NCBI GenBank assembly: GCA_916048095.2
Contig: OU696594.1
Location: 2,104,001-2,168,000 of the forward strand
Reading direction: 5' to 3'
Length of the DNA: 64,000 nucleotides
Source of the DNA: Sacculina carcini
Taxonomy: Eukaryota; Arthropoda; Thecostraca; Sacculinidae
Shown here: positions 7,935 through 52,336 of the stretch, one piece after another
Position numbering within the stretch: the first letter of the stretch is position 1
Layout: every line of letters begins with the position of its first letter
Position numbers and translations under genes: made by a program
Notes under the pieces: generated by a model
What the model was told of the DNA's origin: nothing
Databases searched by the model: none
The model's input: the letters and a program-made list of their open reading frames with translations, nothing else

Positions 7935-10900
7935 ACAGCTATTATGCGCACTTGCGATTACACAGGAATATACTACTGTGTAGATAATTTTGTGTTCTAC
8001 AAGATAAGGTATAATTTATACCCATGAATGATACAAAAAACGTGTAAAATTGGCAAAATTCTCAAATACATCCAAAATTGCACTTGACCACCGGGCGACT
8101 GAAATTAATTCCTTTTTCTACTATTTCTCAGTAAATATTTGTAACACAAAAAAATAAATTATACCATCGTGCTAGAAATCTGGTTTTCTACAATACGGTA
8201 TAATTTGTAATTTTCCAAAGTGTATCTGAAGGAAGTTACGGCGGTGTAAAGTCAAAAGAACATATTGCCAATTTGACAGCTATTATGCGCACTTGCGATT
8301 ACACAGGAGTATACTACTGTGTAGATAATTTTGTCTTCTACAAGATAAGTTATAATTTATACCCACAAATGATACAAAAAACGTGTACAAAAATCTTCAT
8401 TATTACGTGTTCAAGTTCTGAATATTTCCGTACGACGGGCAGACTTAAATATGACGCTATTTGAGGGAAACATTTTGTCCAAATATAAAAAAATATTAAC
8501 CTTCATACTTTTCTATTAGATAAGACTTTTAATGGGTTTACTTTTCTCTTTTTAATTTGTATCTCTTCTTTATAAATTGAATATTAGTTTTATTGTAGTA
8601 ATTGTTCCTCATGACGGGCGGGTTTAATGCTATAATGGGTAAAACGTGTTCCAATGGTTTTAATTTTCCAAAGTGTTCCTAAAGGAAGTTACGTCGGTGT
8701 AACGTCAAAATGACATGTTGTCAATTTGACAGCTATTATGCGCACTTGCGATTACACATGATTATACACTGATTTAATTTCGCTGAAGCCCAATCACAAT
8801 TAAGAATGCATCATATTAGCTCCAAGCATGGATGGTGTGGTCTTATTGGGTACAGTTTAATTAATGCTACACTATACTGAATAGAATGGCTTTATTGTCC
8901 TCAATATTTACACATGAATTGTTCCGCCCGACGGGCGGGTAAAATACTACTGGGAACAAAGTTAACTACTGAATTTTACTGTATAATTTAATTGGTTTAA
9001 TTTCAAGTTGCATAAGCTTAAGTTGCATAAGGATATGGGTTGTAATATCATGCAATGCCAACTATATGAATATGCTGTTTTAGCGGACGCATAAATCTGG
9101 AATTATAGAGATGACAGAAAGTTGCATTGTTTTGATAGTGTTACACTTCTGAATTACTACACACGAAGGATGGGTGTGAACTTGAGCAGTGTTGAGGAAA
9201 AAACATCGTCAATAATTAAAACAAGAATTTACAAATTTCACTTTTTCTGTTGGTTGTTTTTCATCAATTTTCTTTGTGTTTGTTTCGTGTTTGAGTTCTG
9301 AATTATTCCGCACGACGGGCAGCTTCAAATATGAGGCGGGTTGTGGAAAAACATGTTCTCTAAATTGAAACATAAATTTCACATTTAGACTTTTATATTG
9401 GCTAAACATTCCTATGGGTTTGTTTTTCTTTTTCAATTTTCACTAATTTTTTTATGAATTGAATATTAATTATATTTAATGAACTGTTCCGCACGACGGG
9501 CGGGCTTAAATGTATCTATAAAGAGTGGGTTTAAATGATAGCGAGGTATATGATATTTTGCTAGCAGTAAATATTCTAGCGATAAAAGTAGAATAGCTCT
9601 TAAGCAAATGATTTTGGAGAATGATGTGAACCTTTAAATATATTTTGCGATCTGATGATATAAGTATAAGGAATAATACGTAGCAGAATATAGATTGCAT
9701 AATATAATATCGGCTGTAATATCAAGGGCTTTAATATCGGTGTAATCCAAAAAATAACAACTGTATGAATATGATGCATTAGTGGAAGCATTAACCGGAA
9801 ATTATGAGATAATATGATAATGGTGTACAATTATATCGCTTTATGCAACAAATGTGAATTCAGCTGCCTTACAGTTTGGTTCCGATACTATATTGGCGGG
9901 TTGAGAGATAAGTATTTGTGGGCCGCGTGTTTGGGACCCCTGGGGTAGATAATCTCAGTCTTCTGATTACAAATTATGATCGCATCAGTATATTTTGTGA
10001 TCACAAACTAATAAGTTAAATCACCTCAGACTAGGCTGAGTGCGGTCAAGATTGGATGGTTGGGTTGGGTTGGGTAGGTTTGACTCAGGTTATATTGGCT
10101 TTTAATGATAGCGGAAAAAATATAAATTTTAGCAATAAATATTATAGCGGTAAAAGTAAAATAGTACTTAAGCAAATGATATTGGGGAATGATGTTAAGT
10201 AATAAATATAGTTTGGAAACATTCTGATGAGAAGATTTCATCATCTTTCATTGTTTGTTTCTTGTTTGTGTTCTGAATTATACCACACGACGGGCAGATT
10301 TATATATCAGGCGGGTTGAGGGATAATATTTGTCCAAATAAGAACAAAAATATTCACATTTAGATTTTTCTATTGGTTAAGATATTTATAGGTTACATTT
10401 TTTGGTTTTCAATTCGTATTCAATATATTTTATGGATTTGACATGAATTTTATTGTATGAATTGTTCCGCACGTCGGGCGGGTTTAAAAAAAGTGTTTTT
10501 AGTTCATTTTTTCAAATGGTTCATTTAAAAAGGTAGTTTTTTAATATAAAAATGCTCCGCGATCAGCAACTATAGACAATAGAACGTTCAATTTCCCCTG
10601 TATAATTAATCCATACACAAAACCAATGGATTTGACTTCAAATATGAATTTTATTGTATGAATTGTTCCGCACGAGGGGTTTAAAAAAGTGCTTCTATTT
10701 TTTAGTTCATTTTTTCAAATGGTTCATTTAAAAAAAGGTATTCTTTTTAATAAAAAAAACTCCGCGGGCAGCAACTATAGACAATAGACGTTCAATTTAC
10801 CCTGTAGAATTAATCCATACACAAAACCAATGGATTTGACTTCAAGATCCAGAACGGATCGTGTTCGAGTTCTGAATTATTCAGCACGACGGGCGGGTTT

Positions 10901-12997: not shown

Positions 12998-14180
12998 ATA
13001 ATTATACAGAAATTATACCATCGTGCTAGAAATGTTGTTTTCTACAATTCGAAATAATTTGTAATTTTCCAAAGTGTATCTAAAGGAAGTTACGGCGGTG
13101 TAAATTCAAAAGGACATATTGCCAATTTGACAGCTATTATGCGCACTTGCGATTACACAGGAATATACTACTGTGTAGATAATTTTGTGTTCTACAAGAT
13201 AAGTTATAATTTATACCCACAAATGATACAAAAAACGTGTAAAATTGGCAAAATTCGCAAATACATCCAAAATTACACTTGAACACCGGGTGACTAAAAT
13301 TTATTCATTTTTCTACTATTTCTCAGTAACTGTTTGTTATACATAAAAATAAATTATACTATCGTGCTAGAAATTTTGTTTTCTACAATACGGTATAATG
13401 TTTAAATTTCCAAAGTATATCTGAAGGAAGTTACGGCGGTGTAAGTCAAAAGGACATATTGCCAATTTGACAGCTATTATGCGCACTTGCGATTACACAG
13501 GAATATACTACTGTGTAGAGAATCTTGTGTTCTACAAGAAAAGGTATAATTTATACCCACAAATGTTACAAAAAAACGTGTAAAATTGGCAAAATTCTCA
13601 AATACATCCAAAATTACACTTGAACACCGGGCGAATATAATTAATTCATTTTTCTACTATTTCTCAGTAACTATTTGTTACACATAAAAATAAATTATAC
13701 CATCGTGCTAAAAATCTTGTTTTCTACAATTCGGTATAATATGTAATTTTACAAAGTATATCTGAAGGAAGTTACGGCGGTGTAAGTCAAAAGGACATAT
13801 TGCCAATTTGACAGCTATTATGCGCACTTGCGATTACACAGGAATATACTACTGTGTAGAGAATCTTGTGTTCTACAAGAAAAGGTATAATTTATACCCA
13901 CAAATGTTACAAAAAAACGTGTAAAATTGGCAAAATTCTCAAATACATCCAAAATTACACTTGAACACCGGGCGACTAAAATAAATTAATTTTTCTACTA
14001 TTTCAAAGTAACTATTTGTTACACGTAGAAATAAATTATACCATCGTGCTAGAAATCTCGTTTTCTACAATACGGTATAATTTGTAATTTTCCAAAGTGT
14101 ATCTGAAGGAAGTTACAGCGGTGTAAATTCAAAAGCACATATTTCCAATTTGACAGCTATTATGCGCACTTGCGATTACA
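12998..14180 (+). repeat. 341-bp tandem monomers inside Helitron
   Basis: The anchor TTATGCGCACTTGCGATTAC recurs near 13127, 13468, 13811 and 14150, a period of about 341-343 bp. Each monomer holds two imperfect hairpins: one framed by ATTATACC/GGTATAAT, the other by GTGTAGA/TTCTACA. Confidence 0.88.
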
Positions 14181-15002
14181 CAGGAATATACACCGATTAA
14201 ATTTCACTGAAGCCCAATCGCAATTCAGAATGCATCATATTAGCTCCATGCATGAATGGTGTGGTTTCATTGGGTACAGTTTAATTAATGCTACACTATA
14301 CTGAATAGAAAGGCTTTATTGTCCTCAATATTTACACATGAATTGTTTCGCCCGACGGGCGGGTAAAATACTACTGGGAAAAAAGTTAACTACTCAAGTT
14401 GCATAAGGATATGGGTTGTAATATCATGCAATGCCAACTATATGAATATGCTGTGTTAGCGGACGCATAAATCTGGAATTATAGAGATGACAGAAGGTTA
14501 CATTGTTTTGATAGTGTTACACTTCTGAATTACTACACACGAAGGATGGGTGTGAACTTGAGCAGTGCTGAGGAAAAAAACTTCGTCAATAATTAAAACA
14601 AGAATTTACAAATTTATATTTTTCTATTGGATAAGCTTTTTGCTTTTTGATTCATTATATTGTATTTATAGTTCCGCACGACGGGCGGGTTTAAATACGA
14701 GGCAGTTCGAGGGAAAATATTTTGCCACATCTAAAATAAAAACATTCACATTTAGACTTTTCTATTGGTTAAGACTTTTTATGGGTCTAAGCCAGTGATT
14801 CTCAAACCCGCGGCACGCGTGCCGCATGCGGCACAGTAAGGGTCTGAGTGCGGCACAGCTAGCACCAACCGATCAGCCAGTTGAAAAATTTACTTCATAA
14901 AACAAGACGATAGCATTATTAATATGGAATTGATGAAAAAACATTCAGAATATCAATACTGCAAAATGGCTATAAAAAAGATAAAGTAAAAAATTAGAAA
15001 AA

Positions 15003-27946: not shown

Positions 27947-28799
27947 AGATCCTCTGTGTGTGGGTGTGTGTGTCTGTGTGTCTGTGTGTCTGTCCAACCC
28001 TCCTTGGTCCATATTCTATTAGCTATTATTTGGCCAAATATAGGCCTACCCGCTAACAATTTATACCATCACGTTGAAAATTTTCTTGTCTACACTTTTG
28101 ATTAAGTTTTAAATTTCAAAAATGAAATCAAAAAAAGTTATAGCGGTGAAAAGACCAAATGAACCCTGAAAAATGCGAAAATTTTGGTCAATTTTCTGAA
28201 GACTACTCCTCCTAAACCAGCAATGGTACAACTATACAAATTATACAACTGTGTAGAAAATTTCTGTTCTACTCAACAAAGTATAATTTATACCCAAAAA
28301 TTAAATACAAAACAAGTAAAATTGAAAAAAAATCAATCTACATTCAAAATTTTATTTGAACTCCACCCGTCCGATTTTCTATACTTTTTTCTCTATTTCT
28401 CAAAAATTAATAATCACACATCTAAATAAATAATACCATCATGCTGGGAATTTTGTTTGCTACCACACGGTATAATTTTTCATTTTCCAAAGGGCATTAA
28501 AAAAAGTTACGGCGGTGTGAAGTGTAAATGACAAAAAAGCAAAAAGGCAAAATTAGCACAAAAAACGTGAATATTTTGGTCAATATTCCGCTATCTATTC
28601 TTCATAAACCAGCAATGGTAAAGCTATACAAATTATACTATTGTGTAGATAACTTTGTGTTCTACAAGAAATGTTATAATTTATACCCACAAATGATACA
28701 AAAAACGTGTACAATTGGCAAAATTCTCAAATACATCCAAAATTACACTTGAACACCGGGTGATTAAAATTAAATTATTTTTCTACCCATTTCTCAGGA

Positions 28800-31700
28800 A
28801 CTATTTGTCACACATTACAAGAAATTATACCATCGTGCTAGAAATGTTGTTTTCTACAATTCGAAATATTTGTAATTTTCCAAAGTGTATCTAAAGGAAG
28901 TTACGGCGGTGTAAATTCAGAAGGACATATTGCCAATTTGACAGCTATTATGCGCACTTGCGATTACACAGGAATATACTACTGTGTAGATAATTTTGTG
29001 TTCTACAAGAAAAGTTATAATTTATACCCACAAGTGATACAAAAAACGTGTAAAATTGGCAAAATTCGCAAATACATCCAAAATTACACTTGAACACCGG
29101 GTGACTAAAATTTATTCATTTTTCTACTATTTCTCAGTAACTGTTTGTTATAAATAAAAATAAATTATACTATCGTGCTAGAAATCTTGTTTTCTATAAT
29201 TCGGTATAATTTGTAATTTTACAAAGTATATCTGAAGGAAGTTACGGCGGTGTAAGTCAAAAGGACATATTGCCAATTTGACAGCTATTATGCGCACTTG
29301 CGATTACACAGGAATATACTACTGTGTAGATAATTTTGTGTTCTACAAGAAAAGTTATAATTTATACCCGCAAGTGATACAAAAAACGTGTAAAATTGGC
29401 AAAATTCGCAAATACATCCAAAATTACACTTGAACACCGGGTGACTAAAATTTATTCATTTTTCTACTATTTCTCAGTAACTGTTTGTTATACATAAAAA
29501 TAAATTATACTATCGTGCTAGAAATCTTGTTTTCTACAATTCGGTATAATTTGTAATTTTACAAAGTATATCTGAAGGAAGTTACGGCGGTGTAAGTCAA
29601 AAGGACATATTGCCAATTTGACAGCTATTATGCGCACTTGCGATTACACAGGAATATACTACTGTGTAGATAATTTTGTGTTCTACAAGAAAAGTTATAA
29701 TTTATACCCACAAATGATACAAAAAACGTGTAAAATTGGCAAAATTATCAAATACATCCAAAACTACACTTGAACACCGGCGACTAAAATAAATTAATTT
29801 TTTTACCATTTCACAGTAACTATTTGTTACACGTAGAAATAAATTATACCATCGTGCTAGAAATCTCGTTTTCTACAATGCGGTATAATTTGTAATTTTC
29901 CAAAGTGTATCTGAAGGAAGTTACAGCGGTGTAAAGTCAAAAGCACATATTTCGAATTTGACAGCTATTATGCGCACTTGCGATTACACAGGAATATACA
30001 CCGATTTAATTTCACTGAAGCGCAATTCAGAAAATTTCTGTTTTACTCAACAAAGTATAATTTATACCCAAAAATTAAATATAAAACATGTAAAATGGAA
30101 AAAAAATCAATCTACATTCAAAATTTTATTTGAACTCCACCCGTCCGATTTCCTATACTTTTTTCTCTATTTCTCAAAAATTAATAATCACACATCTAAA
30201 TAAATAATACCATCATGCTGGGAATTTTGTTTGCTACAACACGGTATAATTTTTCATTTTCCAAAGTGTATTAAAAAAGTTACGGCGGTGTGAAGTGTAA
30301 ATGACAAAAAAGCAAAAAGGCAAAATTAGCACAAAAACGTGAATATTTTGGTCAATATTCCGCTATCTATTCCTCATAAACCAGCAATGGTACAGCTATA
30401 AAAATTATACTATTGTGTAGATAACTTTGTGTTCTACAAGAAAAGTTATAATTTATACCCACAAATGATACAAAAAACGTGTACAATTGGCAAAATTCTC
30501 AAATACATCCAAAATTACACTTGAACACCGGGTGATTAAAATTAAATTATTTTTCTACCCATTTCTCAGGAACTATTTGTCACACATTACAAGAAATTAT
30601 ACCATCGTGCTAGAAATGTTGTTTTCTACAATTCGAAATAATTTGTAATTTTCCAAAGTGTATCTAAAGGAAGTTACGGCGGTGTAAATTCAAAAGGACA
30701 TATTGCCAATTTGACAGCTATTATGCGCACTTGCGATTACACAGGAATATACTACTGTGTAGATAATTTTGTGTTCTACAAGAAAAGTTATAATTTATAC
30801 CCACAAGTGATACAAAAAACGTGTAAAATTGGCAAAATTCGCAAATACATCCAAAATTACACTTGAACACCGGGTGACTAAAATTTATTCATTTTTCTAC
30901 TATTTCTCAGTAACTGTTTGTTATACATAAAAATAAATTATACTATCGTGCTAGAAATCTTGTTTTCTACAATTCGGTATAATTTGTAATTTTACAAAGT
31001 ATATCTGAAGGAAGTTACGGCGGTGTAAGTCAAAAGGACATATTGCCAATTTGACAGCTATTATGCGCACTTGCGATTACACAGGAATATACTACTGTGT
31101 AGATAATTTTGTGTTCTACAAGAAAAGTTATAATTTATACCCACAAATGATACAAAAAACGTGTAAAATTGGCAAAATTATCAAATACATCCAAAACTAC
31201 ACTTGAACACCGGCGACTAAAATAAATTAAATTTTTTACTCTTTCACAGTAACTATTTGTTACACGTAGAAATAAATTATACCATCGTGCTAGAAATCTC
31301 GTTTTCTACAATGCGGTATAATTTGTAATTTTCCAAAGTGTATCTGAAGGAAGTTACAGCGGTGTAAAGTCAAAAGCACATATTTCGAATTTGACAGCTA
31401 TTATGCGCACTTGCGATTACACAGGAATATACACCGATTTAATTTCACTGAAGCGCAATTCAACAAATTTCTGTTTTACTCAACAAAGTATAATTTATAC
31501 CCAAAAATTAAATATAAAACATGTAAAATGGAAAAAAAATCAATCTACATTCAAAATTTTATTTGAACTCCACCCGTCCGATTTCCTATACTTTTTTCTC
31601 TATTTCTCAAAAATTAATAATCACACATCTAAATAAATAATACCATCATGCTGGGAATTTTGTTTGCTACAACACGGTATATTTTTTCATTTTCCAAAGT

Positions 31701-32530
31701 GTATTAAAAAAGTTACGGCGGTGTGAAGTGTAAATGACAAAAAAGCAAAAAGGCAAAATTAGCACAAAAACGTGAATATTTTGGTCAATATTCCGCTATC
31801 TATTCCTCATAAACCAGCAATGGTACAGCTATAAAAATTATACTATTGTGTAGATAACTTTGTGTTCTACAAGAAAAGTTATAATTTATACCCACAAATG
31901 ATACAAAAAACGTGTACAATTGGCAAAATTCTCAAATACATCCAAAATTACACTTGAACACCGGGTGATTAAAATTAATTTATTTTTCTACCCATTTCTC
32001 CGGAAATATTTGTCACACATTACAATAAATTATACCATCGTGCTAGAAATCTTGTTTTCTACAATACGGTATAATTTTTAATTTTCCAAAGTGTATCTAA
32101 AGGAAGTTACGGCGGTGTAAAGTCAAAAGGACATATTGCCAATTTGACAGCTATTATGCGCACTTGCGATTACACAGGAATATACTACTGTGTAGATAAT
32201 TTTGTGTTCTACAAGATAAGTTATAATTTATACCCACAAATGATACAAAACACGTGTAAAATTGGCAAAATTCTCAAATACATCCAAAACTACACTTGAA
32301 AACCGGGCGACTAAAATAAATTAATTTTTCTACTATTTCACAGTAACTATTTGTTACACGAGGAAATAAATTATACCATCGTGCTAGAAATCTCGTTTTC
32401 TACAATACGGTATAATTTGTAATTTTCCAAAGTGTATCTGAAGGAAGTTACAGCGGTGTAAAGTCAAAAGCACATATTTCCAATTTGACAGCTATTATGC
32501 GCACTTGCGATTACACAGGAATATACACCG
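28800..32530 (+). repeat. 341-bp monomers in a higher-order array
   Basis: Anchors near 28938, 29279, 29619, 29959, 30713, 31054, 31395, 32147 and 32487. Runs of 340-341-bp spacing alternate with ~753-bp gaps that contain a diverged monomer. The block from about 29958 repeats at about 31391, a higher-order period of about 1433 bp. Confidence 0.85.
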
Positions 32531-35895: not shown

Positions 35896-37385
35896 TCTAT
35901 ATATATAAAACAGATCCTCTGTGTGTGTGTCTGTCTGATTGTCTGTCCCACCCTCCTTGGTCCATTTTCTGCAAGCTGCTTCTCGGTAACCACTTGGTGT
36001 ACCCGCTAACAATTGATACCATTACGTTGCAAATTTTCTTGGCTACACGATAGGCTACATTTAAGCTACATTACCACTGTGTAGAAAATATTCTTTTCTA
36101 CTCGGTAGGCTATAATTCATATTCAAAAATTAAATATAAACTACGTAAATATGACAAAATTTCAGTCTACATTCAAAAATATATTCAAACTCGACGCGTC
36201 CGATTTTCTATACTTTTTTCCCTATTTCTCAACAACTAACTATGACACGTCTAAACCAATTATATCATCATACTGGAAATTTTGTCATCTACAACACGGT
36301 ATAAATTTTAATTTTCCAAAGTGTATTAAAAAAATTTAAGGCCGTGTGAAGTCAAAATGACAAAGTCAAAAATGCAAAATTAGCACTGAAAAACGCGAAT
36401 ATTTTGGTCAATATTCCGCTATCTATTTCTCATAAACCAGCAATGGTACAGCTATAAAAATTATACTATTGTGTAGATAATTTTGTGTTCTACAAGAAAA
36501 GTTATAATTTATACCCACAAGTGATACAAAAAACGTGTAAAATTGGCAAAATTCTCAAATACATCCAAAGTTACACTTGAACACCGGGTGACTAAAATTA
36601 ATTCATTTTTCTACTATTTCTCAGTAACTATTTGTCACACATCAAAATTAATTATACCATCGTGCTAGAAATTTTGTTGTCTACAATACGGTATAATTCT
36701 AAATTTTCCAAAGTGTATCTGAAGGAAGTTACGGCGGTGTAAAGTCAAAAGAACATATTGCCAATTTGACAGCTATTATGCGCACTTGCGATTACACAGG
36801 AATATACTACTGTGTAGAGAATCTTGTGTTCTACAAGAAAAGTTATCATTTATACCCACAAATGATACAGAACACGTGTAAAATTGGCGAAATTCTCAAA
36901 TACATCCAAAATTACACTTGAACACCGGGCGAATATAATTAATTCATTTTTCTACTATTTCTCAGTAACTATTTGTTACACGTAGAAATAAATTATACCA
37001 TCGTGCTAGAAATCTCGTTTTCTACAATACGGTATAATTTGTAATTTTCCAAAGTGTATCTGAAGGAAGTTACAGCGGTGAAAAGTCAAAAGCACATATT
37101 TCCAATTTGACAGCTATTATGAGCACTTGCGATTACACAGGAATATACACCGATTAAATTTCACTGAAGCCCAATCGCAATTCAGAATGCATCATATTAG
37201 CTCCAAGCATGGATGGTGTGGTTTTATTGGGTACAGTTTAATTAATGCTACACTATACTGAATAGAAAGGCTTTATTGTCCTCAATATTTACACATGAAT
37301 TGTATCGCCAGACGGGCGGGTAAAATACTACCGGGAAAAAAGTTAACTACTCAAGTTGCATAAGGATATGGGTTGTAATATCATG
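35896..37385 (+). mobile_element. Helitron 5' part, truncated
   Basis: It starts TC at 35896 and matches 17678 onward without the LTR insertions. Monomer anchors are near 36768 and 37108. It is cut near 37385, where Helitron sequence continues in inverted orientation. Confidence 0.75.
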
Positions 37386-38250
37386 CCATGCCATGTCAAA
37401 TCGGCAATATGTCCTTTTGACTTTACACCGCCGTAACTTCCTTTAGATACACTTTGGAAAATTACAAATTATACCGTATTGTAAAAAACAAGATTTCTAG
37501 CACGATGGTATAATTAATTTTATGTGTAACAAATAGTTATTGAGAAATGGTAGAAAAATGAATTAATTTTAGTCGCCCGGTGTTCAAGTGTAATTTTGGA
37601 TGTATTTGAGAATTTTGCCAATTTTACACGTTTTTTGTATCATTTGTGGGTATAAATTATAACTTTTCTTGTAGAACACAAAATTATCTACACAATAGTA
37701 TAATTTTTATAGCTGTATTTTTTTTTTGACTTTGTCATTTACACTTCACACCGCCGTAACTTTTTTAATACACTTTGTAAAATTAAAAATTATACCGTGT
37801 TGTATCAAACTAAATTTCCAGCATGATGGTAATTTATTTAGTTGTGTGATAATTAGTTTTTGAAAAATACAGAAAAAAGTATAGAAAATCGGACGCTTGG
37901 AGTTTAAATATTATTTTGAATGTAGATTGAATTTGTTTTGATTTGACTCGTTTTATATTCATTTTTGGGTATCAATTACTGTTTGTTGAGTAGAACAGGA
38001 AACTTTCTACACAGTGGTATATTTTTTATAGTTGTACCATTGCTGGTTTAGGAGGAGTAGTCTTCATAAAATTGACCAAAATGTTTGCATTTTTCAGGGT
38101 TCATTTTGTTTTTTCACCGCTATAACTTTTTTTGGTTTTGTTTTTAAAGTTTAAAATTTAGCATATCGTGTAGACAAGAACATTTACAACGTAATGGTAT
38201 AAATTTTTAGCGAGTAGATTGAGTGGTGGTTGACAATTAGTTGATAGAAA
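37386..38250 (-). mobile_element. Helitron 5' part, inverted
   Basis: Reverse complement of Helitron monomers and the region just inside the Helitron head. It is interrupted at 38250 by the retroelement stack, and a further monomer piece follows that stack at 43276. Confidence 0.7.
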
Positions 38251-38298
38251 ATGTTATCGTTCAATAAAAACAAGCCTGGAATAATAAAAAAAAAAAAA
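38251..38298 (+). mobile_element. Retroelement R0: 48-bp 3' end with poly(A)
   Basis: It matches the last ~35 bp of the element at 40288-43224, including AATAAA, then about 13 A. It is the most 5'-truncated copy of the stack. It is followed by a spacer with two CGTTTGA units (38299-38316). Confidence 0.85.
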
Positions 38299-38316
38299 AC
38301 GTTTGACGTTTGACGT

Positions 38317-39914
38317 ATTTTTTTTTTTTTTATTCCAGGCTTGTTTTTATTGAACGATAACATATGAGCCAACTGGCAACGGTATTCACATAACACATGA
38401 GCCAACGGGCAATGAGGTTCATACTGAATATACATGAGCATTGAGCATAGAGAACACATAACACTATAAGTAGAAATATACATTATGTGTGCATAGGTGT
38501 GCGTGTAACATAGGTGAGTTTCTGTAGTAGCGACGTATCACGGTGGATGTCATCGTTCGCATGGTCGTCTGACACGCTCAAGTACTGGAACCTGACTGAC
38601 GCCACTCCGTTGGCGGGCCAACGGCCTACCGCCACTGAGTGGCGTAGTTGTTGAAGGTCGTGACGGGGCGTCAGCCGGGTTCCAAGCGGTCGGGACGTAA
38701 GCCATGCGAAATGGCCGCTGAAAGGCGAAACGGTTGAGTATCGGTAGTAGAGCGGGACTGACTCGTCGCCGGCTCAGATTATAAAGTACTGCAACGTTGT
38801 CCGTGAGTAATAACGGCATCTGATATCCGCTGAGGAAGGCTGCGGCTAAGCCCCAAAGGGCTGCACGCTGCTCCGCGTCGTATATATGCGGACTGTCGTG
38901 GTGAAGACGCGTCCATTGCTGATGTGGTGTGGCCAAGCCTAATGCATGTTGCGAGGCGTCAGTGGCGATAATACAGTCCACTGGAGGCGCAGGCGTTACT
39001 GGTTGTAAGTTTTCGAGCATCGGAGCTGCGCTCGCGAGCCTTGTTGGTTGGTAGAGTGCTAGTGCTGCGTACGTTGTTGGTAGGCGCATGGTGCGGCACA
39101 GGAACGAGATGTACCCCGCTAATCGTCGTCGCCACACGTAGGGTTGTTGTGGCGCGAGAGTACATGCTTGCATGAGTTGTCGTTTCGTCACCGGGTTGAT
39201 GTCGATGCTGGTTGTCGATCCTTGACAGATGCGAAACCCCAAAAAGTCGATGGTTGAGGTTGGTGTCCAACAGCTCTTCGCATGATTGATTTGTACTTGC
39301 CAACGATCAAGCAGCGGCCGAATCTTGCACAGTTGAACCGGTGGTCCCACAGCCAAAAAATCATCCAGGTAGGCGACGCAGTGAATGTTCAGCTGGTCTT
39401 GTAGCGCTTGTGCAATAGCAGTTGTCACGGTTTGCATCAAAGCGGGCGCTGATGCGAGTCCCATTGGTAGCCGGGTCCATTGGTATATTTGTCCGCGGTA
39501 CGATACATTGAGTAGAGCTGATAAGCCTTTATGGAGAGGGAGTTGAAAAAATCCGTGCCTAAGATCGAACTTCACCATTTTCCATTGTGGGTGAGCCGCC
39601 AGGTGTTGTAGACACACCGTGGGGCGAGGCAACTTGATTGTGTAATGCGCCAATTGGTCGGTCAATGGAGATAGGTCGTATAAAATACGAGCCGTTCCGT
39701 TGGGCTTTGCTATCGCGAAAAGGCGGAATACTGGCCCGTGTCGGGCGTCCGTTGGTCGTAATAGATCAGCTTGGACCAGGGCTGGTACTAGCGCGTCAAG
39801 AAATGACGTGGGTTTCGTTGGCTGCCATGTAGTACGAGCTGTTTTTGGTATGTGTGTGCGGAGGCCGTGTGTCAGCATATTACGCACCTGTGGCGGATAT
39901 TGATCTTGTGCTGT
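38317..39914 (-). mobile_element. Retroelement R1: inverted, 5'-truncated copy
   Basis: It begins with poly(T) and reads leftward as RT-RNase H ORF, 3' UTR and poly(A). It is nearly identical to 41627-43224 (a few substitutions seen). At 39914 it meets a 23-bp filler and then a sense copy. Confidence 0.9.
38550..39914 (-). CDS. RT-RNase H, C-terminal two-thirds (partial)
   Basis: The frame is open from the truncation to the stop and matches residues from about 206 to 664 of the protein at 41011-43005, with isolated substitutions. RT (YLDD) and all four RNase H acidic residues are kept. It lacks the N-terminal domain and the upstream capsid-like gene, so it is a dead-on-arrival fragment despite its open frame. 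Confidence 0.85.
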   Translation of the reverse strand, partial: TAQDQYPPQVRNMLTHGLRTHIPKTARTTWQPTKPTSFLDALVPALVQADLLRPTDARHGPVFRLFAIAKPNGTARILYDLSPLTDQLAHYTIKLPRPTVCLQHLAAHPQWKMVKFDLRHGFFQLPLHKGLSALLNVSYRGQIYQWTRLPMGLASAPALMQTVTTAIAQALQDQLNIHCVAYLDDFLAVGPPVQLCKIRPLLDRWQVQINHAKSCWTPTSTIDFLGFRICQGSTTSIDINPVTKRQLMQACTLAPQQPYVWRRRLAGYISFLCRTMRLPTTYAALALYQPTRLASAAPMLENLQPVTPAPPVDCIIATDASQHALGLATPHQQWTRLHHDSPHIYDAEQRAALWGLAAAFLSGYQMPLLLTDNVAVLYNLSRRRVSPALLPILNRFAFQRPFRMAYVPTAWNPADAPSRPSTTTPLSGGRPLARQRSGVSQVPVLERVRRPCER

Positions 39915-39937
39915 GTGATCTATGTGATCTTGATCTT

Positions 39938-40287
39938 GTCACGACCTTCAACAACTACGCCACTCAGTGGCGGTAGGCCGTTGGCCCGCCAACGGAGTGG
40001 CGTCAGTCAGGTTCCAGTACTTGAGCGTGTCAGACGGCCATGCGAACGATGGCATCCACCGTGATACGTCGCTACTACAGAAACTCACCTATGTTACACG
40101 CACACCTATGCACACATAATGTATATTTCTACTTATAGTGTTATGTGTTCTCTATGCTCAATGCTCATGTATATTCAGTATGAACCTCATTGCCCGTTGG
40201 CTCATGTGTTATGTGAATACCGTTGCCAGTTGGCTCATATGTTATCGTTCAATAAAAACAAGCCTGGAATAATAAAAAAAAAAAAAA
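39938..40287 (+). mobile_element. Retroelement R2: sense 3' fragment with poly(A)
   Basis: It matches 42879 onward: the last ~40 codons of the RT-RNase H ORF, the 3' UTR, AATAAA and poly(A). Its 5' border lies just before the structured hairpin. It abuts R1 head to head through the filler 39915-39937, which is made of TGATCT-like pieces. Confidence 0.88.
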
Positions 40288-40367
40288 TAGACTATTACGT
40301 CACGCTCCGCCACTCACAGCTACACACACAGGAACACCTGTAGTGTGTGCTCTCTCTGCCCCCAGGC

Positions 40368-41177
40368 ATGCCGGGTGGAGAGTTTGGCGGGACGTCAGGC
40401 ACGTCCATTTCCTTCGGAGCCGCCAGTGCGAGCGCTACAGCCACATCGCCAATCACAGCTGCGCCTTCACGTTCTTCCCCGCTGCCGCCGCCGACGCCGA
40501 CCACGCAGCGGGCACGTGCGAAGCCGCCGGCCTGGGCCGCGGCCCTGACCGAGAAGATCGACTTCGTAATGAGTCGCTTGCAGCTGGACGCCACAGCCCC
40601 ACTGCCAAGCCGCTCAAGTCGCCCTGCAACTGCAGAGGACATACCGGGTCTCGCGGAGGACCCAGAGTATCCCGACGACGCCGACGAACAGCCCTATGCA
40701 CGCGAGGTAAGAGCTCACGACGCAGTCAGTGAAGCTTCGCTTCCATCTACCCTACCTACGTGCGACGCCGTGCAGCAGTGGTCTCGCCGTCTCAACGAGT
40801 ACGTGGACACCAACCGTACAAAGTTGAAACAACGTGAGCTACACGAATACAGGGCGATACTTACCCTGGCAAGGGTGTACGATCAATTGCCAAGCGAGGA
40901 CCAGCACTGGTTCAAGGCCCGCCTACAAACTCTGTTAACGGCGGCGCTTTACGGCTGGTCCGTCGCGATCAAAAGCGAACAGACAGACGAAGCACGGCTT
41001 CTGAATCTAAATGCGGCGGAAAGTCATCTCCAACGTCAACAGCAACAACAGCCAACCTCGCGTCGTTTCGCCACACGACGACGACAACGCTCAGAGACAC
41101 GACGTCCTACGGTGGGACGCGGCCGCGGGGGCATCAAGCCCAGCGCGCGACCGCGCCTCTCCCCGGGCCGACAGTAG
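40368..41177 (+). CDS. Capsid-like protein (ORF1), basic C-terminus
   Basis: 269 codons from the ATG at 40368 (the frame is also open a little upstream). The first ~90 residues are Gly/Ser/Ala/Pro-rich and low in complexity. Residues ~115-210 look helical, with many charged and aromatic positions. A polyglutamine patch is followed by an Arg/Ser-rich tail (SRRFATRRRQRS and GRGRGG). Basic tails of this sort bind nucleic acid in gag or capsid proteins. There is no zinc knuckle. It overlaps the RT ORF by 167 bp in another frame. I recognise no family, so capsid/gag is inferred from position, size and the basic tail. It could instead be an ORF1-type RNA chaperone. Confidence 0.7.
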   Translation: MPGGEFGGTSGTSISFGAASASATATSPITAAPSRSSPLPPPTPTTQRARAKPPAWAAALTEKIDFVMSRLQLDATAPLPSRSSRPATAEDIPGLAEDPEYPDDADEQPYAREVRAHDAVSEASLPSTLPTCDAVQQWSRRLNEYVDTNRTKLKQRELHEYRAILTLARVYDQLPSEDQHWFKARLQTLLTAALYGWSVAIKSEQTDEARLLNLNAAESHLQRQQQQQPTSRRFATRRRQRSETRRPTVGRGRGGIKPSARPRLSPGRQ

Positions 41178-43005
41178 TCCCGTATGGGACTCCCTGGCCG
41201 AGCTCGCGCCATCAGCCGACGCTCGGCCCGACTGCCAGCCAGAGACCTATCTGCTGCGCAATGCTTCTCCTCGCCAGTACGCCGAACTTCAACCGATTAC
41301 TCCCGACTGGCTCGACGAACTCTTGGATACAACGCTCTCCGACGACGCGGTTCATATGGCGGCCGACGCTCTCGAAATGCTTGCGCCCGATGAGATTCCT
41401 CTTCCTGACTCTGCGCGCGACCGTGCGGTCACGGATCACGGGGCCATCATGTCAATGCAATGGCATGAGCTCCAGGACGACGCCAACCAAAGGATGGCTC
41501 GCTCCCCCACACCTACCGTCAATGCAACCGACCAAAACGACGCCTCGCTCCTGCCGTGCCTTCGGCCCTCGACAGCGCGGCAATGGCGCCAGTTAACGCT
41601 CCCAGACATGGCCAACCTTCATGTGCTGCCAGCACAAGATCAATATCCGCCACAGGTGCGTAATATGCTGACACACGGCCTCCGCACACACATACCAAAA
41701 ACAGCTCGTACTACATGGCAGCCAACGAAACCCACGTCATTTCTTGACGCGCTAGTACCAGCCCTGGTCCAAGCTGATCTATTACGACCAACGGACGCCC
41801 GACACGGGCCAGTATTCCGCCTTTTCGCGATAGCAAAGCCCAACGGAACGGCTCGTATTTTATACGACCTATCTCCGTTGACCGACCAATTGGCGCACTA
41901 CACAATCAAGTTGCCTCGCCCCACGGTGTGTCTACAACACCTGGCGGCTCACCCACAATGGAAAATGGTGAAGTTCGATCTTAGGCACGGATTTTTTCAA
42001 CTCCCTCTCCATAAAGGCTTATCAGCTCTACTCAATGTATCGTACCGCGGACAAATATACCAATGGACCCGGCTACCAATGGGACTCGCATCAGCGCCCG
42101 CTTTGATGCAAACCGTGACAACTGCTATTGCACAAGCGCTACAAGACCAGCTGAACATTCACTGCGTCGCCTACCTGGATGATTTTTTGGCTGTGGGACC
42201 ACCGGTTCAACTGTGCAAGATTCGGCCGCTGCTTGATCGTTGGCAAGTACAAATCAATCATGCGAAGAGCTGTTGGACACCAACCTCAACCATCGACTTT
42301 TTGGGGTTTCGCATCTGTCAAGGATCGACAACCAGCATCGACATCAACCCGGTGACAAAACGACAACTCATGCAAGCATGTACTCTCGCGCCACAACAAC
42401 CCTACGTGTGGCGACGACGATTAGCGGGGTACATCTCGTTCCTGTGCCGCACCATGCGCCTACCAACAACGTACGCAGCACTAGCACTCTACCAACCAAC
42501 AAGGCTCGCGAGCGCAGCTCCGATGCTCGAAAACTTACAACCAGTAACGCCTGCGCCTCCAGTGGACTGTATTATCGCCACTGACGCCTCGCAACATGCA
42601 TTAGGCTTGGCCACACCACATCAGCAATGGACGCGTCTTCACCACGACAGTCCGCATATATACGACGCGGAGCAGCGTGCAGCCCTTTGGGGCTTAGCCG
42701 CAGCCTTCCTCAGCGGATATCAGATGCCGTTATTACTCACGGACAACGTTGCAGTACTTTATAATCTGAGCCGGCGACGAGTCAGTCCCGCTCTACTACC
42801 GATACTCAACCGTTTCGCCTTTCAGCGGCCATTTCGCATGGCTTACGTCCCGACCGCTTGGAACCCGGCTGACGCCCCGTCACGACCTTCAACAACTACG
42901 CCACTCAGTGGCGGTAGGCCGTTGGCCCGCCAACGGAGTGGCGTCAGTCAGGTTCCAGTACTTGAGCGTGTCAGACGGCCATGCGAACGATGGCATCCAC
43001 CGTGA
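41011..43005 (+). CDS. Reverse transcriptase-RNase H protein (ORF2)
   Basis: 664 codons. Residues 1-230 are an unassigned N-terminal region, acidic and Asp-rich in part. RT palm follows: motif A FDLRHGFFQLPL (D323), motif B LPMGLASAP (~355-363), motif C YLDD (388-391), then a CWTPTSTIDFLGF block. RNase H has D525 (ATDAS), E554, D578 (TDNVAVL) and D621 within WNPADAPSR. A ~40-residue Arg/Pro-rich tail ends the protein. It would copy element RNA and degrade the template. RNase H lying directly after RT, with no integrase or protease, together with an overlapping capsid-like ORF, recalls DIRS-like and hepadnavirus-like polymerases rather than LINEs. Placement is my inference; a profile search is needed. 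The start could be a little upstream by frameshift or reinitiation from ORF1. Confidence 0.87.
   Translation: MRRKVISNVNSNNSQPRVVSPHDDDNAQRHDVLRWDAAAGASSPARDRASPRADSSPVWDSLAELAPSADARPDCQPETYLLRNASPRQYAELQPITPDWLDELLDTTLSDDAVHMAADALEMLAPDEIPLPDSARDRAVTDHGAIMSMQWHELQDDANQRMARSPTPTVNATDQNDASLLPCLRPSTARQWRQLTLPDMANLHVLPAQDQYPPQVRNMLTHGLRTHIPKTARTTWQPTKPTSFLDALVPALVQADLLRPTDARHGPVFRLFAIAKPNGTARILYDLSPLTDQLAHYTIKLPRPTVCLQHLAAHPQWKMVKFDLRHGFFQLPLHKGLSALLNVSYRGQIYQWTRLPMGLASAPALMQTVTTAIAQALQDQLNIHCVAYLDDFLAVGPPVQLCKIRPLLDRWQVQINHAKSCWTPTSTIDFLGFRICQGSTTSIDINPVTKRQLMQACTLAPQQPYVWRRRLAGYISFLCRTMRLPTTYAALALYQPTRLASAAPMLENLQPVTPAPPVDCIIATDASQHALGLATPHQQWTRLHHDSPHIYDAEQRAALWGLAAAFLSGYQMPLLLTDNVAVLYNLSRRRVSPALLPILNRFAFQRPFRMAYVPTAWNPADAPSRPSTTTPLSGGRPLARQRSGVSQVPVLERVRRPCERWHPP
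42899..42943 (+). other. Stem-bulge-stem RNA hairpin at end of ORF2
   Basis: Lower stem CGCCACT/AGTGGCG (42899-42905, 42937-42943), upper stem CCGTTGG/CCAACGG (42919-42925, 42930-42936), loop CCCG, and a 13-nt bulge on the 5' side. All 14 pairs are Watson-Crick. It is present in R1, R2 and R3. It could be a packaging or priming structure; function unproven. Confidence 0.7.
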
Positions 43006-43224
43006 TACGTCGCTACTACAGAAACTCACCTATGTTACACGCACACCTATGCACACATAATGTATATTTCTACTTATAGTGTTATGTGTTCTCTATGCTC
43101 AATGCTCATGTATATTCAGTATGAACCTCATTGCCCGTTGGCTCATGTGTTATGTGAATACCGTTGCCAGTTGGCTCATATGTTATCGTTCAATAAAAAC
43201 AAGCCTGGAATAATAAAAAAAAAA
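43006..43224 (+). terminator. 3' UTR, poly(A) signal and tail of R3
   Basis: AATAAA at 43192-43197 is followed about 17 bp later by a genomic A-run. Identical 3' ends close R0, R1 and R2, showing that polyadenylated RNA was the template. Confidence 0.85.
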
Positions 43225-43275
43225 ATAACTACGTCTTTATTACGTCTTAACTACGTCTTTACGTTCCGACGTTAA
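43225..43275 (+). repeat. Short TACGTCTT-type repeats after poly(A)
   Basis: Three to four copies of TACGTCTTTA-like units follow the R3 tail. Similar ACGTC motifs follow R0/R1 (38299-38316) and R2 (about 40293). Confidence 0.7.
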
Positions 43276-43995: not shown

Positions 43996-44089
43996 TGATA
44001 TTCGTTGTTGAGTAATAACGACTAAAGGTCCAGCGGTCCAATGCGGTCATCGTTGATGCCATAGCCGAAGGTGTTGAAATATTCTATCC

Positions 44090-45385
44090 ACACCGCCGAA
44101 CGTGCCTCAACCCCGACTGGTCTCAGACAGGGGTGGGTACTGGCTACGCCAGAAGCACTGTCACTGTCATTCCAAAGTCCCAGGATGCTGCCCAGACAGA
44201 TGGCGGTTGACACTGGCGGGATCACGATTTTTGCGACCAGCTGAAGCCCGGTACGCCCCCATCGAAGGCGAGGCGCTCGCGGTGGCGTGGGCTCTCGAGG
44301 ATAGCCGCTTTATCACTCTAGAGTGCCGCGACCTCGTGGTCACCACCGACCACAAACCACTGGTCAAGATATTGTCCGACAGAGCTCTGGACGAGATAGC
44401 TAATCCTCGGCTATTTCGTCTAAAGCAACGGACACTCATGTGGAGATACCGCATCATATACGTTCCGGGAAAGGACATCCCTGCAGCAGACGCCACCTCA
44501 CGCAACCCAGCGTCATGTCAAGAGGACACGGGTGACACAAGACTTCCCAGCGACCTCTCGGCGTTTCGGGTGCACACAACCGCAAGTGATATCGACGCAC
44601 CCATGGTGGCGTGAGCCAAGCGCGCCACGGGCAAACTCGGCGCAATCACGTGGGACCGAGTCAAGAACGTCACAGCATCGGACGGGGCCATGACGAAGCT
44701 GACATCATACATACGGTGCGGATTCCCTACATCGAGAGACGATGTGCCCGAAGAGCTCCAGCCGTATTGGCAGCACCGGAACGAGCTGTACACTGTGGAT
44801 GACGTGCCAATGCTCGGCGGATGAATCGTGGTACCTCCGTCGCTACGCAACGAGGTCCTCCGCGTCCTTCTTGCTGCTCATCAGGGTTATAGCAGGATGT
44901 ACAGCAGAGCCCAGCACACGGTCTTCTGGCCCGGCCTAACAAAAGACATTGAAAGCACTCGTCACAGATGCTGCGACTGCTGGCGGACCTCGCCGTCACA
45001 ACCACGCATGCTGCCTGCCACACCAACAGTCCCGTCCCGCCCCTTCGAGGCAATCGCAGCCGACTTCTTCACCACAAAAGGCGTCGGGTATCTGGTGATC
45101 GTCGACCGATTCAGTGGCTGGCCACACATCGTGGCCTCGGCATCAGGCTCCAGGGGCTTCAAGAGAGCCCTCGTGAACTACTTCGCCACCTTTGGCGTTC
45201 CCCAGGAGCTGAGTACCGACGGCGGCCCCGAGTTTACAGCCGGCGAAAAAACAGACCTACTGACGCGATGGGGAGTCCGTCATCGGCTGTCGTCTGCGTA
45301 CCAAGCAGTGTCGAATGGCCGCGCTGAAGTCGCCGTCAAATTTATGAAGCGCCTCCTGATGGCTCTGGATGACACCGACGTGTGA
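44090..45385 (+). pseudogene. Ty3/gypsy RNase H-integrase fragment
   Basis: One frame from 44102 to 45385 with two TGA stops (44612 and 44822). RNase H: FLRPAEARYAPIEGEALAV, VVTTDHKPL, and YVPGKDIPAADATSR. The integrase follows with a zinc-binding region (HQGYSRMY ... CCDC near 44960), core D in AADFF, D in STDGGPEF and E in NGRAEVAVK, giving D-x35-E. The RT, gag and integrase C-domain are missing. Both stops are TGA at positions where CGA would restore arginine, consistent with CpG decay. The family differs from the element at 339-2606. Confidence 0.88.
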
Positions 45386-49504: not shown

Positions 49505-52336
49505 ACATGTAGCAATTATGAGTCCCGAATATGTAAATAAATGTGCAAAAAAGAGATAAATTATTAAATAAAAGGAAAGACGGATTAAATCAATATCAAT
49601 GGGAAGAATAAATCCATTATAACATTGCAAACAAGTAGACTTAAGAAGACTCTGAGGCCAAAGATAGGAAATCTTGTGGAGTTCAGAGGAGCAAGGTGAG
49701 TAGGATTTCATTCGGAGGAGGCGAGGAGAAAGTGAATTATAAATGCGGGGTGCAGAAAAAAAGAATGATTTCGCAGACCAAGTGGACTGGTTCAACGCAG
49801 GGGACAGATTAGAGGAGTAGGATGGCGACGTGAACCAGAAGTACTCTCTTGAACCAGAAGTAGTGAGCGTAGATAGGACGGGGGTGAAGGGCAGTGAAGG
49901 TTTTTGTATACCAAACAGCAAATTTTGTACCGAATTCGGAAATGAGCAGTGAGCCAACCAAAGCGGTGAAGGTGAGCTGAATTTGGCGTTTTGGGAGGAA
50001 GTTTAAGATCGAAGCGACAGGCAAGGTTGATAATGGATAATGAATTGTAGATGGCGGATATTTTTGAGGGGAAGGTGAAAAAACAAGGAGTTGCAGTAAT
50101 CTAGGCGAGTGAAAATGTAAGAATTGACGAGAATAACAGCCGAAGATTCGTCCAAAAGAGTACGTATGGGATATAATTTTCTCAGAATGAAGCGGCAAGA
50201 GCGAGTGATTTGAGAAATGTGTTGAGAAAATGATATTGTCTGATCAAATGTAATGCCATGGTTGCAAATTTGAGAAGCTAGAGGCAAGGAGACAGTGGTA
50301 GGGGTTATCCTTGGAGGATGAAAAACTAAGTAGACTGTTTTGTCGTGATTAAGAAGGAGGTGTCTGGAGGCAGCCCATGACGAAATATGGGAAAGAAGTT
50401 TAGATACCAAAGTAGAATTATGTAAAGATAGGGCAAAGTAAATTTGTACATCGTCAGCATAGACATGAAAGGAAATAGGGTTTTCTCTGAGGACATAACA
50501 AAGGGACCAGACGTAGAGGTTGAAAAGGAGTGGTCCCAGGAGAGAACCCTGTGGGAAGTCAACGGAAGATTGACAGACATCCGGGAATCACAGCGGGCAG
50601 AAAAAGAACGCTTATGAAGGTAGGAAGAAGCAAGAGAAAGAGCTTAGGAAGAAAAGCCAATAGGGGCAAGATCTTCACAAAGAATTGAATGATTGACGAG
50701 ATCAGAGGCAGATGAAAAATCTAATGATATTAGCAGAGCAGATTTGCCGAAGGAAAAGTTGGAAAAAAGTCATTAGTGAGGCGAATAAGAAGAGTTTCAG
50801 TTGAATGATTTGACATAAAACCTGATTGACAAGGATCAAGGACCGGAGTAATAATCGGACGAAGCTGTTCAATGATAGCGTGTTCAAGAAGTTTAGAAGG
50901 AAGCGTAAGCATAGATATAGGACGATAGTTCGAGGGGATGGCAGGACCAACATTAGGCTTCTTCAGGATGGGTGTGATTATAGCATGCTTAGAAGCTAGA
51001 AATTGACCATGAAGAAAGCAAGAATTAACCATATGGGTGGGAATAGGAGCAAGGAGGAGGATCGAATCAGAGAGAGTGGAAAAATTAATAGGATCCGAGG
51101 GGCTTCTTCTGTTGCGGAGTTTTAGGAGTAAACGAGATGTTTTATAGGGAAAAATTGGTACGAAGGCCAAAATTGAATATGAGGAGGTAGGAAATGATAG
51201 AAGAAAATGACTTTTTGGAATATTTGAGAGTATTGTATCAATTTTTTCAGTGAAAAAAGAGGAAAATTGATCAGCTGAAATCATAATTGGACTCCGGGAG
51301 GCACTACCAGTTATTGAATCCAGAATGGACCACCGAGAGTACGAACCCTTTCCCAGTGAGGATAGGTGAGAGGTGAAATAAATGGATTTGGCGGAAGTAA
51401 GAGAGGCGAGGAAGGAATTTCGAGCCGAGCAAAAAGGTTGACCAGGACGAACGAGAGCGAAAGCGCCCCAGAGCGCTCCGTAAGACGGCATTTGGAGCGC
51501 AGGAGGCGCAGATCTGAGGACCACCAAGGAGGGGTTGGAGATTCACAGATAACTTTGATTTCACGGAGTGGAAAGATAAGATCATTTATATTTTAGAGGC
51601 AATCTGAGATGAAGCTTGGGAGTGATAGAGGACTGAGGAAAACATAACTAAGAGGATATAGGAAGCGTTCTACAACAGAGAAGAAGTGAGAAGAAAAAAA
51701 TTATTGTAGTTGCGTGAAAGAATAAACCTAGAGGAAGATTTGGGAGAACAAGGGAAGAAAGTTGGAATGTGATAAGGCTATGGTCAGAAAAGAGAGGATC
51801 TGGGTGGTGGCTGAGTATGTCTGGGGAACGAGTTTCGAAGAAGTCGGAGTAGAAATAATGAGATCCAGCGTATGACCAGAAGTATGGGTAGCACCTGAGT
51901 TTAAGATGAGAAGATCCCAAGAGTCGAGCAGAGAAATAAAATCACGTATGAGAGTTTGAGACGAAGGGAGATCAGCCCAGATGTTGAAGTCGCCTAGCAG
52001 AATATAGTTATCAGAGAAATGTTGGGAAAGTAGTGAGATGAATTCGTCAAAGTCAGACAGGAAAAGTGAGGCGGTACCAGAATTATTATGACGGTATACC
52101 ACTATAATACCCAGGGTGGGAAGTGCTGGTAGAGACAGACATAGTACTACAAATTCGAAAGCGGGAGATGTAAAATTGAATTACTTGAGGGTGGAGAGGG
52201 AAAGCGAGGCATTGAAAATGACGCCAACTCCACCGCCCGAAGGTTTCAATTATGAAGAAAGAGATCGACAGGCATGTAAGAAATTAAAAGACGGGGGAAG
52301 ATGAGCTCTAAACGTGGGAACGCCGTCTCCAGGAGC
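49505..52336 (-). pseudogene. CR1/L2-type LINE ORF2, decayed
   Basis: Reading leftward: end of the AP endonuclease (YILLGDFNIWADLP near 51970, HTLDLIIS near 51850), a linker, and RT (NYRPISMLTLPSKLLEH near 50900, GSLLGPLLFNLY near 50530, YADDVQIYF near 50450). Then LGVxFD-type thumb sequence (50240), LDYCNSLFFHLPLKNI (50090) and the C-terminal WSAKSFFFSAPRIYNSL near 49760. Several frameshifts and stops interrupt it. The 5' end is truncated inside the endonuclease; no clear tail is seen at 49505. It is the same broad family as the LINE at 56690-57672. Confidence 0.85.

Follow-up and report, generated by a model that had tools for sequence, protein, structure and literature searches.

The HEART retroelements were reportedly described by Gong and Han in 2018. 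According to the accessible parts of three papers (PMC12691608, PMC12440569, PMC11551314), they are retroelements of invertebrates with a reverse transcriptase (RT) related to that of the Blubervirales; an ancient HEART element has been proposed as the source of the hepadnavirus line (PMC12691608), and the mobilization of HEART is described as not yet resolved in a 2025 paper (PMC12440569). A literature search, with most subscription papers outside its reach, yielded no published HEART mechanism and no duplicated promoter of the kind reported here. An element of a probably similar lineage is present in a stretch of 64,000 nt of the Sacculina carcini contig OU696594.1 (“the window”; positions count from its start). 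It contains two open reading frames (ORFs), ORF1 and, for RT and RNase H, ORF2, plus a promoter-like segment, R, which is located at the 5′ end of the element and again inside the end of ORF2. As judged from the sequences, the 5′ ends defined at the first base of R, A(+1), the duplication of R inside the end of ORF2, and the identity of the R copies within an element would be new here.

Hepadnaviridae, nackednaviruses, and proto-nackednaviruses share with the element an RNase H of family PF00336, two overlapping ORFs, and an RNA redundancy near both ends, which is reported as about 33 nt for the pregenomic RNA of a proto-nackednavirus (accessible text of PMC12691608). Unlike these viruses, the element has no match to the terminal-protein family, is integrated with a poly(A) tail, and continues with different sequences after its two R copies, so that its genome should not be circular. 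HeT-A and TAHRE possess a promoter in the 3′ region, TART perfect non-terminal repeats, and an oligo(A) tail is found; HeT-A was called an intermediate between non-LTR and LTR (long terminal repeat) elements (all from the accessible part of PMC5537684). In 3′-region promoter, repeats, and oligo(A) tail, HeT-A and TART resemble the element, but they are telomeric non-LTR elements, whereas the element encodes an RT-RNase H of the LTR/hepadnavirus type, has no endonuclease, and occurs on many contigs.

Non-LTR elements with internal promoters, those of insects and L1Tc of trypanosomatids with its Pr77, likewise carry their promoter within the first transcribed nucleotides, together with an element further downstream. 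As far as we know, an additional copy of the promoter within the end of the coding region does not occur in this group. As stated in the available text of the L1Tc paper, the downstream promoter element (DPE) of insect retrotransposons is at +28 to +32, and L1Tc encodes an endonuclease, unlike the element (PMC4748587). DIRS, PAT, Ngaro, and VIPER elements agree with the element in having RT-RNase H without an aspartic protease or DDE integrase but encode a tyrosine recombinase, which was not found in it. Insertion with poly(A) is, to our knowledge, not a property of that group. Split direct repeats are described for PAT-like elements, Ngaro, and VIPER (PMC6681497, as far as accessible). Long interspersed nuclear elements (LINEs) and other non-LTR elements have poly(A)-type 3′ ends and target duplications; for the element, an A-rich end was seen at 26 of 30 loci and duplications of 11 to 13 nt at 3 of 22, and neither a match to a LINE RT nor an endonuclease family was found. 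Of the features of Ty3 and other LTR retrotransposons, no LTRs, no integrase, and no credible protease match were found.

RESULTS AND DISCUSSION

Defined 5′ ends and the promoter-like segment R

A search for copies in the assembly that contains the window (264 Mb in 43 contigs) gave at least 68 ORF2 matches with 41 to 100% identity. Thirty of them (L001 to L030, the near loci) were read with flanks of 1.5 kb, in addition to nine stretches around more distant copies (L031 to L039), ten short junction stretches (L041 to L050), and four distant copies (L051 to L054). Pairs sharing flanks (L008/L009, L011/L012, L023/L024, L044/L045, and L026/L046) were counted once.

This collection, which the original prediction had proposed as a check, defined the 5′ end. 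Twelve of the 17 readable full-length 5′ ends start at A(+1) of the motif TCAGTC or at most 2 nt away, and five reach 53 to 59 nt further upstream. TCAGTC has the form of an initiator (Inr) of the arthropod type. The 12 insertions of the A(+1) class are independent (L002, L015, L016/L029b, L021c, L023, L026, L027, L030, and L041 to L044). Two start short of A(+1), L027 by 2 nt and L041 by 1 nt, and ten start exactly there, with a G preceding in seven of the ten (P = 0.0035 for a G content of 25%), a pattern consistent with a copied RNA cap, albeit in a small sample. The long class comprises L021 a, L021 b, L029a (the same as L017b in L017), L032, and L053, which carry a structured segment in front of R and begin at about −53 in L021 and −59 in L032 and L053. 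The copies of the window and of L025, among others, start inside R, downstream of it, or in one of the ORFs. The predicted start of the window copy at 40288 lies in the tail of another copy, and the true start is near 40297. For the 5′ region of family 2, 35 rows were obtained, 12 of them 31-nt matches to 3′ R copies. Of the other 23, 16 extend to A(+1), the first position of the query, and 3 of the 16 even further up; two of the seven rows that fall short are family-1 copies beyond the reach of this query.

R comprises 32 nt from A(+1), with a DPE-like RGWYV motif at +28 to +32. This motif is at its place in 28 of the 30 listed R copies, namely, in all 28 of the near families (11 at a 5′ end, 17 inside ORF2), which do not amount to 28 independent tests because the copies are related. 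The remaining two, both in L032, have GGACT at this position, and the R copies of L053 have, by eye, AGACG and AGACC. TC precedes A(+1) in 16 of 17 listed 3′ R copies and TA in that of L023. A strong promoter in the 3′ R copy that feeds insertion was considered and rejected: it should yield many short copies from R to poly(A), and such an abundance was not seen; 36 of the 42 DNA matches obtained with the 3′ region hardly extend past the coding end.

Matching R pairs and constraint at the nucleotide level

Inside the end of ORF2, R recurs after the RNase H, in long-class insertions with the structured segment before it. The repeats within an element are exact over 86 nt in L021, 34 nt in L002, 92 nt in L032, and 90 nt in L053; the two R copies match at 32 of 32 positions in L015 and L023 and at all 30 bases belonging to the element in L027. 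Of the 32 positions of the R core, 18 to 25 match when the main near families, three in number (L027/window, L002, and L015), are compared and 27 to 31 when closer subfamilies are. L031 and L037 are related to L032, yet several positions of their R are different from those of L032. Because the two copies are nearly always identical within an element and different between families, they appear to have been renewed together. In the pairs examined, the 5′ R is followed by the leader of ORF1 and the 3′ R by the end of ORF2 and the 3′ untranslated region (UTR). No R pair was found in L031, L034 to L037, L051, L052, and L054, and L038 and L039 contain array-type repeats only; most of the distant copies without a pair are presumably 5′-truncated.

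The coding end is constrained beyond its protein. When the window copy is compared with L002 or L015, synonymous differences are 0.72 or 0.81 over ORF2, which is near saturation, but 0.13 or 0.25 in the final codons of the comparison (38 and 37, respectively), which contain the structured segment and R. RNA folding of positions 42889 to 42976 gave a z-score of −3.5, the four families scored −3.5, −3.0, −2.4, and −2.9, and two neighboring stretches of the window +0.65 and +0.26. A self-cleaving ribozyme in this segment was also considered; a permissive Rfam search gave only weak, unrelated matches in two stretches (best E value, 0.26), a scan of the window at the gathering threshold gave none, and this candidate was discarded. 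The original prediction contained neither the promoter segment inside ORF2 nor the three element pieces at positions 38251 to 40287, and the duplicated promoter-like segment is more unusual than the features that it did contain.

Coding capacity and lineage

The intact two-ORF, poly(A)-tailed element of the window is real (Table 1). As predicted, both ORFs are intact, in different frames, and overlapping, by 167 nt. The ratio of nonsynonymous to synonymous differences (pN/pS) was 0.12 for ORF1 (window copy versus L027) and 0.11 for ORF2 (L015 versus L023); the values of more distant pairs, 0.20 and 0.43 for ORF1 and 0.25 and 0.34 for ORF2, are inflated because synonymous sites are saturated. 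Such low ratios between copies indicate that the ORFs are more than chance. For ORF1, no Pfam family was found, and its core, modeled with a predicted local distance difference test (pLDDT) score of 70, gave no match at E ≤ 0.001 in a fold search, so that the label “capsid-like” of the original prediction was not borne out. Its Arg-rich end is presumably comparable to the hepadnaviral core protein. The structure model of ORF2 from the single sequence was unusable (pLDDT, 37).

The YLDD-type RT followed by an RNase H with four acidic residues was recovered by profile matches, and these residues (D525, E554, D578, and D621) are invariant across 15 aligned ORF2 copies. RVT_1 and PF00336, the C terminus of the hepadnaviral polymerase, match all 15 ORF2 proteins at E ≤ 0.1, with a best PF00336 value of 2e-10, which agrees with the likeness to hepadnaviruses considered in the original prediction. 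The terminal-protein family PF00242 was not among the four families listed for the 15 ORF2 members at E ≤ 0.1, a search that a divergent terminal protein could escape. PF00336 also matches six of six database relatives tested, P0011 below and P0013 just at the curated cutoff. Three DIRS-like proteins (P0007, P0017, and P0018, which resemble RTs of DIRS), P0005, and the Ty3 RNase H of the window had no match to it at E ≤ 0.01, and two additional Ty3 RNases H had none at E ≤ 0.001 (four Ty3 controls in all). A PF00336 search of the genome yielded 120 places at E ≤ 1, many at known ORF2 matches, and of the others, L051 to L054 were read; some rows match profile positions 22 to 115 only (E from 0.011 up). 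On C35, the contig of the window, 15 of the first 61 of these 120 rows are located, compared to 1.7 expected by length, an excess inflated by duplicated stretches.

Relatives of ORF2 include P0010, annotated as “Protein P,” and P0014, annotated as “polyprotein,” both of Amphibalanus amphitrite, together with P0003, P0004, P0011 to P0013, P0015, and P0016; those of ORF1 are P0001 and P0002. No protein named HEART or hepadnavirus was among the database matches listed, no relative was confirmed in IMG/VR, and genome_contigs contributed one weak fragment. In a tree of 24 sequences (11 elements of the same genome, six relatives, three DIRS-like sequences, and four Ty3 sequences), the clade of the element was separated from DIRS-like plus Ty3 with support values of 100/100 for RT plus RNase H and 96.7/91 for RT alone; an RT tree had been proposed as a check as well. 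Comparison of the RT profile with PDB gave RTs of pararetrovirus, Ty3, foamy virus, and Moloney murine leukemia virus type, with no LINE RT named among the 19 matches. HEART-like retroelements, as they are described in the cited papers, are the likely home of the element. With HEART in print and a barnacle relative already annotated as “Protein P,” the term “undescribed lineage” had been too strong.

No LTR, integrase, recombinase, or endonuclease was detected in the element, in agreement with the original prediction: no endonuclease family was among the profile matches to ORF1 or ORF2, the integrase family PF00665 had no match in the element, and a single Peptidase_A4 match (1 of 15 ORF2 members, E = 0.043) was read as chance. 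The tyrosine recombinase family PF00589 had no match in the genome, including ORF1 and ORF2, with the reservation that a divergent recombinase could escape. A DIRS element with a lost or distant recombinase is disfavored by the ends of the element, the absence of PF00589 matches, and the tree, and an LTR remnant by the missing LTR and the shared non-LTR ends. Of the split direct repeats of PAT style, one 5′/3′ pair is present, and the second, flanking pair was not found.

3′ ends and insertion sites

Of the 30 near loci, 26 terminate in GGAATAA plus an A-rich tail, the length of which varies (the tails of L002, L004, L007, and L025 were judged by eye); L010, L028, L029, and L030 have no such end. 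Where the ORF2 stop fell inside the match, the tail is located 200 to 260 nt past it. These ends are common to many copies and come without an LTR. The predicted AATAAA motif and poly(A) tail of the window copy were confirmed.

Target duplications were analyzed at 22 loci, with the left junction taken from the limits of 5′ homology and 300 shuffles each. No shuffle did as well as the duplications of 12 nt in L002 and 13 nt in L023, the latter with a left-hand filler of 83 nt, and a single shuffle equaled that of 11 nt in L003, which has a right-hand filler of 25 nt; Table 1 lists the candidate of the window copy, termed copy D. Insertions are also paired. L021 belongs to a head-to-head and L015 to a tail-to-tail pair. 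Upstream of copy D, pieces A and B are tail to tail with a spacer of 18 nt (38300 to 38317), and pieces B and C are head to head over a short, repeat-rich filler, with the poly(A) of each facing outward. On C30 (L016/L029), one unit passes from ORF2 straight into the R of the next, head to tail and without a 3′ UTR, a junction that fits a cDNA end jumping to the 3′ R region.

Proposed mechanism and competing explanations

With a confidence somewhat above even, we regard the element as an autonomous, hepadnavirus-related (HEART-like) RT-RNase H retroelement that would be target primed from a capped poly(A) RNA, with a leader that is sometimes renewed by strand transfer. The ORFs and their selection, the poly(A) ends, the shared 5′ ends, the duplicated R and its identity within an element, the synonymous suppression, and the paired insertions can be read from the sequences; that the promoter is active, that the target primes synthesis, that breaks are used, and that strands are transferred is inferred. 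RNA polymerase II would start at A(+1) of the Inr, directed by the DPE-like motif; the promoter would travel in the RNA because this motif is within the transcript. The ORF2 protein would copy the capped, polyadenylated RNA from a chromosomal 3′ end paired with the poly(A) tail. Since no endonuclease was found in the element, the insertion sites are probably nicks or breaks made by others. Use of breaks would give filler, scarce duplications, and head-to-head pairs, the latter where a copy is primed at each of the two ends of a break. When the cDNA has reached the 5′ R, RNase H may free its end, which could reanneal to the matching R within ORF2 and be extended over the structured segment that precedes this R, thereby restoring the longer 5′ leader and keeping the R copies alike, similar to the first strand transfer of LTR elements.

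Several points weigh against this. The case rests on sequence, with no transcript, protein activity, or new insertion observed, and the trees contain no hepadnavirus and no HEART member. Renewal of the leader is not needed in every round because 12 insertions are without and only 5 with the structured leader. Identity of R in family 2 says little since many elements of this family share the same core, which leaves L002, L027, L032, and L053 as the informative pairs, and in L026 the 5′ R matches other elements at 32 of 32 positions and its own 3′ R at 31. Part of the conservation of TCAGTC may be at the protein level because it overlaps the codons for V-S-R, and L044 has lost RGWYV by a deletion. 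The exact starts of L042 and L021c are ambiguous because the former has a flank that agrees with the bases in front of A(+1) as well and the latter has an A-rich flank. Distant copies, L032 for instance, stop near AATAAA with a short A tail or none. Finally, 18 of the 22 loci are without a usable duplication (17 have none, and the match of L014 is an array unit), several of the flanks being nested copies or having an uncertain left end.

The main rival for the integration step is mobilization in trans: host LINEs with an endonuclease would copy the RNAs of the element as they do for processed pseudogenes, while its own RT acts elsewhere, for instance, in a virus-like particle. The poly(A) tails, the duplications of 11 to 13 nt, and the 5′ G are LINE-like, and LINE pieces with an Exo_endo_phos match are located in the same window. 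We nevertheless consider it unlikely because ORF1 and ORF2 are under purifying selection between copies of one genome, the copies examined did not include any other integrated form, a separate replicating form would be required, and the matching R pairs would be left unexplained. The R pairs might instead come from two transcription starts, at A(+1) and at about −55, plus gene conversion of the 5′ and 3′ copies at the DNA level, without strand transfer. Two classes of 5′ ends do exist, the longer beginning at the positions given above for L021, L032, and L053, but copies that agree in their 5′ region (three rows of C30, 100% identity) differ in the presence of the leader, and the identity is complete over 86 to 92 nt in different families, which makes this explanation still more doubtful.

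Least probable, in our view, is an exogenous hepadnavirus-like agent with a pregenomic RNA captured repeatedly in the genome and R as its terminal redundancy. The RNase H type and the redundancy of about 33 nt in a proto-nackednavirus (PMC12691608, accessible part) speak for such an agent, but an RNA read from a circle needs the same sequence after both R copies, which differ here, and the near copies end in poly(A) well past the 3′ R. Of the original prediction as a whole, the retroelement, its poly(A), and its RNase H type persisted, and the tree keeps it apart from the four Ty3 and three DIRS-like sequences; capture of an endogenized pararetrovirus with a circular genome, like the undescribed lineage, was not supported.

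Features of the window and neighborhood of other copies

TABLE 1 Positions of the element, its neighboring pieces, and its landmarks in the window
Feature	Position	Strand	Remarks
Piece A	38251..38299	+	Terminal ~50 nt of an element, with poly(A)
Piece B	38316..39913	-	1,598 nt, 5′-truncated, 99.6% identical to copy D
Piece C	39938..40287	+	Last 350 nt of element, own poly(A)
Candidate target-site duplication, left, TATTACGTC	40293..40301	.	9 nt; 7/300 shuffles; ACGTC (5 nt) shared with element end
Retroelement copy D	40297..43223	+	Without first ~30 to 35 nt (5′ R); homology to L027 begins here; poly(A) 3′ end
ORF1	40368..41177	+	ATG to TAG; Pro-rich N terminus, helical core, Arg-rich C terminus
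ORF2, reverse transcriptase then RNase H	41011..43005	+	ATG to TGA
RVT_1 match	41935..42315	+	PF00078, E = 6e-17; YLDD at 42172-42183
Hepadnavirus-type RNase H domain	42568..42888	+	PF00336, E = 2.8e-4 in copy D, slightly below Pfam cutoff
Structured segment before R (“U3-like”), within ORF2 coding end	42889..42945	+	Folding z-score; synonymous suppression
3′ copy of R	42946..42977	+	Inr-like TCAGTC at 42944-42949 (A+1 = 42946); RGWYV (AGACG) at 42973-42977; also L027 5′ end
AATAAA	43192..43197	+	Sequence
3′ terminus GGAATAATAA then poly(A)	43207..43225	+	Other near copies end alike
Candidate target-site duplication, right	43238..43246	.	9 nt; 12 nt beyond tail

The fillers at the junctions (38300 to 38317, 39914 to 39937, and 43226 to 43262) consist of short repeated motifs (ACGT-rich; GATCTTGATCTTGT) and resemble the templated filler of error-prone end joining. 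Arrays of a satellite of about 340 bp are present at 13010 to 14191, 28634 to 32526, 36462 to 38036, and elsewhere in the window; fragments of it flank copy D (from 43273) and, by eye, the L042 insertion on C36. A remnant with Ty3-type RNase H and integrase (44078 to 45382, plus strand) is located directly downstream of copy D. The LINE-like pieces (50006 to 52180, minus strand), with matches to RVT_1 and, below the cutoff, to Exo_endo_phos, are a possible trans-mobilizer. An ORF of 622 codons with DUF7047 and a weak rve match is at 738 to 2603 (plus strand), and a shorter, inverted ORF with nearly the same start at 6613 to 7344 (minus strand).

Elsewhere in the genome, copies of the element form regular tandem arrays on C37 (6308635, 6311044, and 6313453, a period of 2,409 bp) and C21 (5169085 to 5191247, a period of about 5.5 kb), which probably originated from unequal crossing-over. 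L032 adjoins an endogenous mononegavirus-like polymerase gene (oriented positions 2451 to 5088 and 7981 to 9900; PF00946, E = 1.4e-83) with L proteins of 1,711 to 1,756 amino acids as best PDB matches, and no match was found for the ORF in its right flank. The right flank of L052 is a viral RNA-dependent RNA polymerase (RdRP_4, E = 1.3e-13), and the ORF in its left flank is open and without a match. These neighbors hint at a link between the element and endogenous RNA virus genes.

Implications

Tentatively, the element, in a lineage next to the hepadnaviruses, may be an extant intermediate of the non-LTR and LTR modes of replication. Poly(A)-primed insertion at breaks would be accompanied by a strand transfer mediated by R, through which the promoter leader would be rebuilt from the copy that lies within the polymerase gene. 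Together with R, the structured segment could then be a forerunner of the R/U3 of LTRs or of the hepadnaviral epsilon/DR1 redundancy. The genome of S. carcini offers many diverged copies, some nearly identical with open frames and defined ends, so that the question of HEART mobility becomes testable at the start site, the priming site, and the strand transfer. It also serves as a specific model for the acquisition of a redundant promoter by an element that lacks LTRs.

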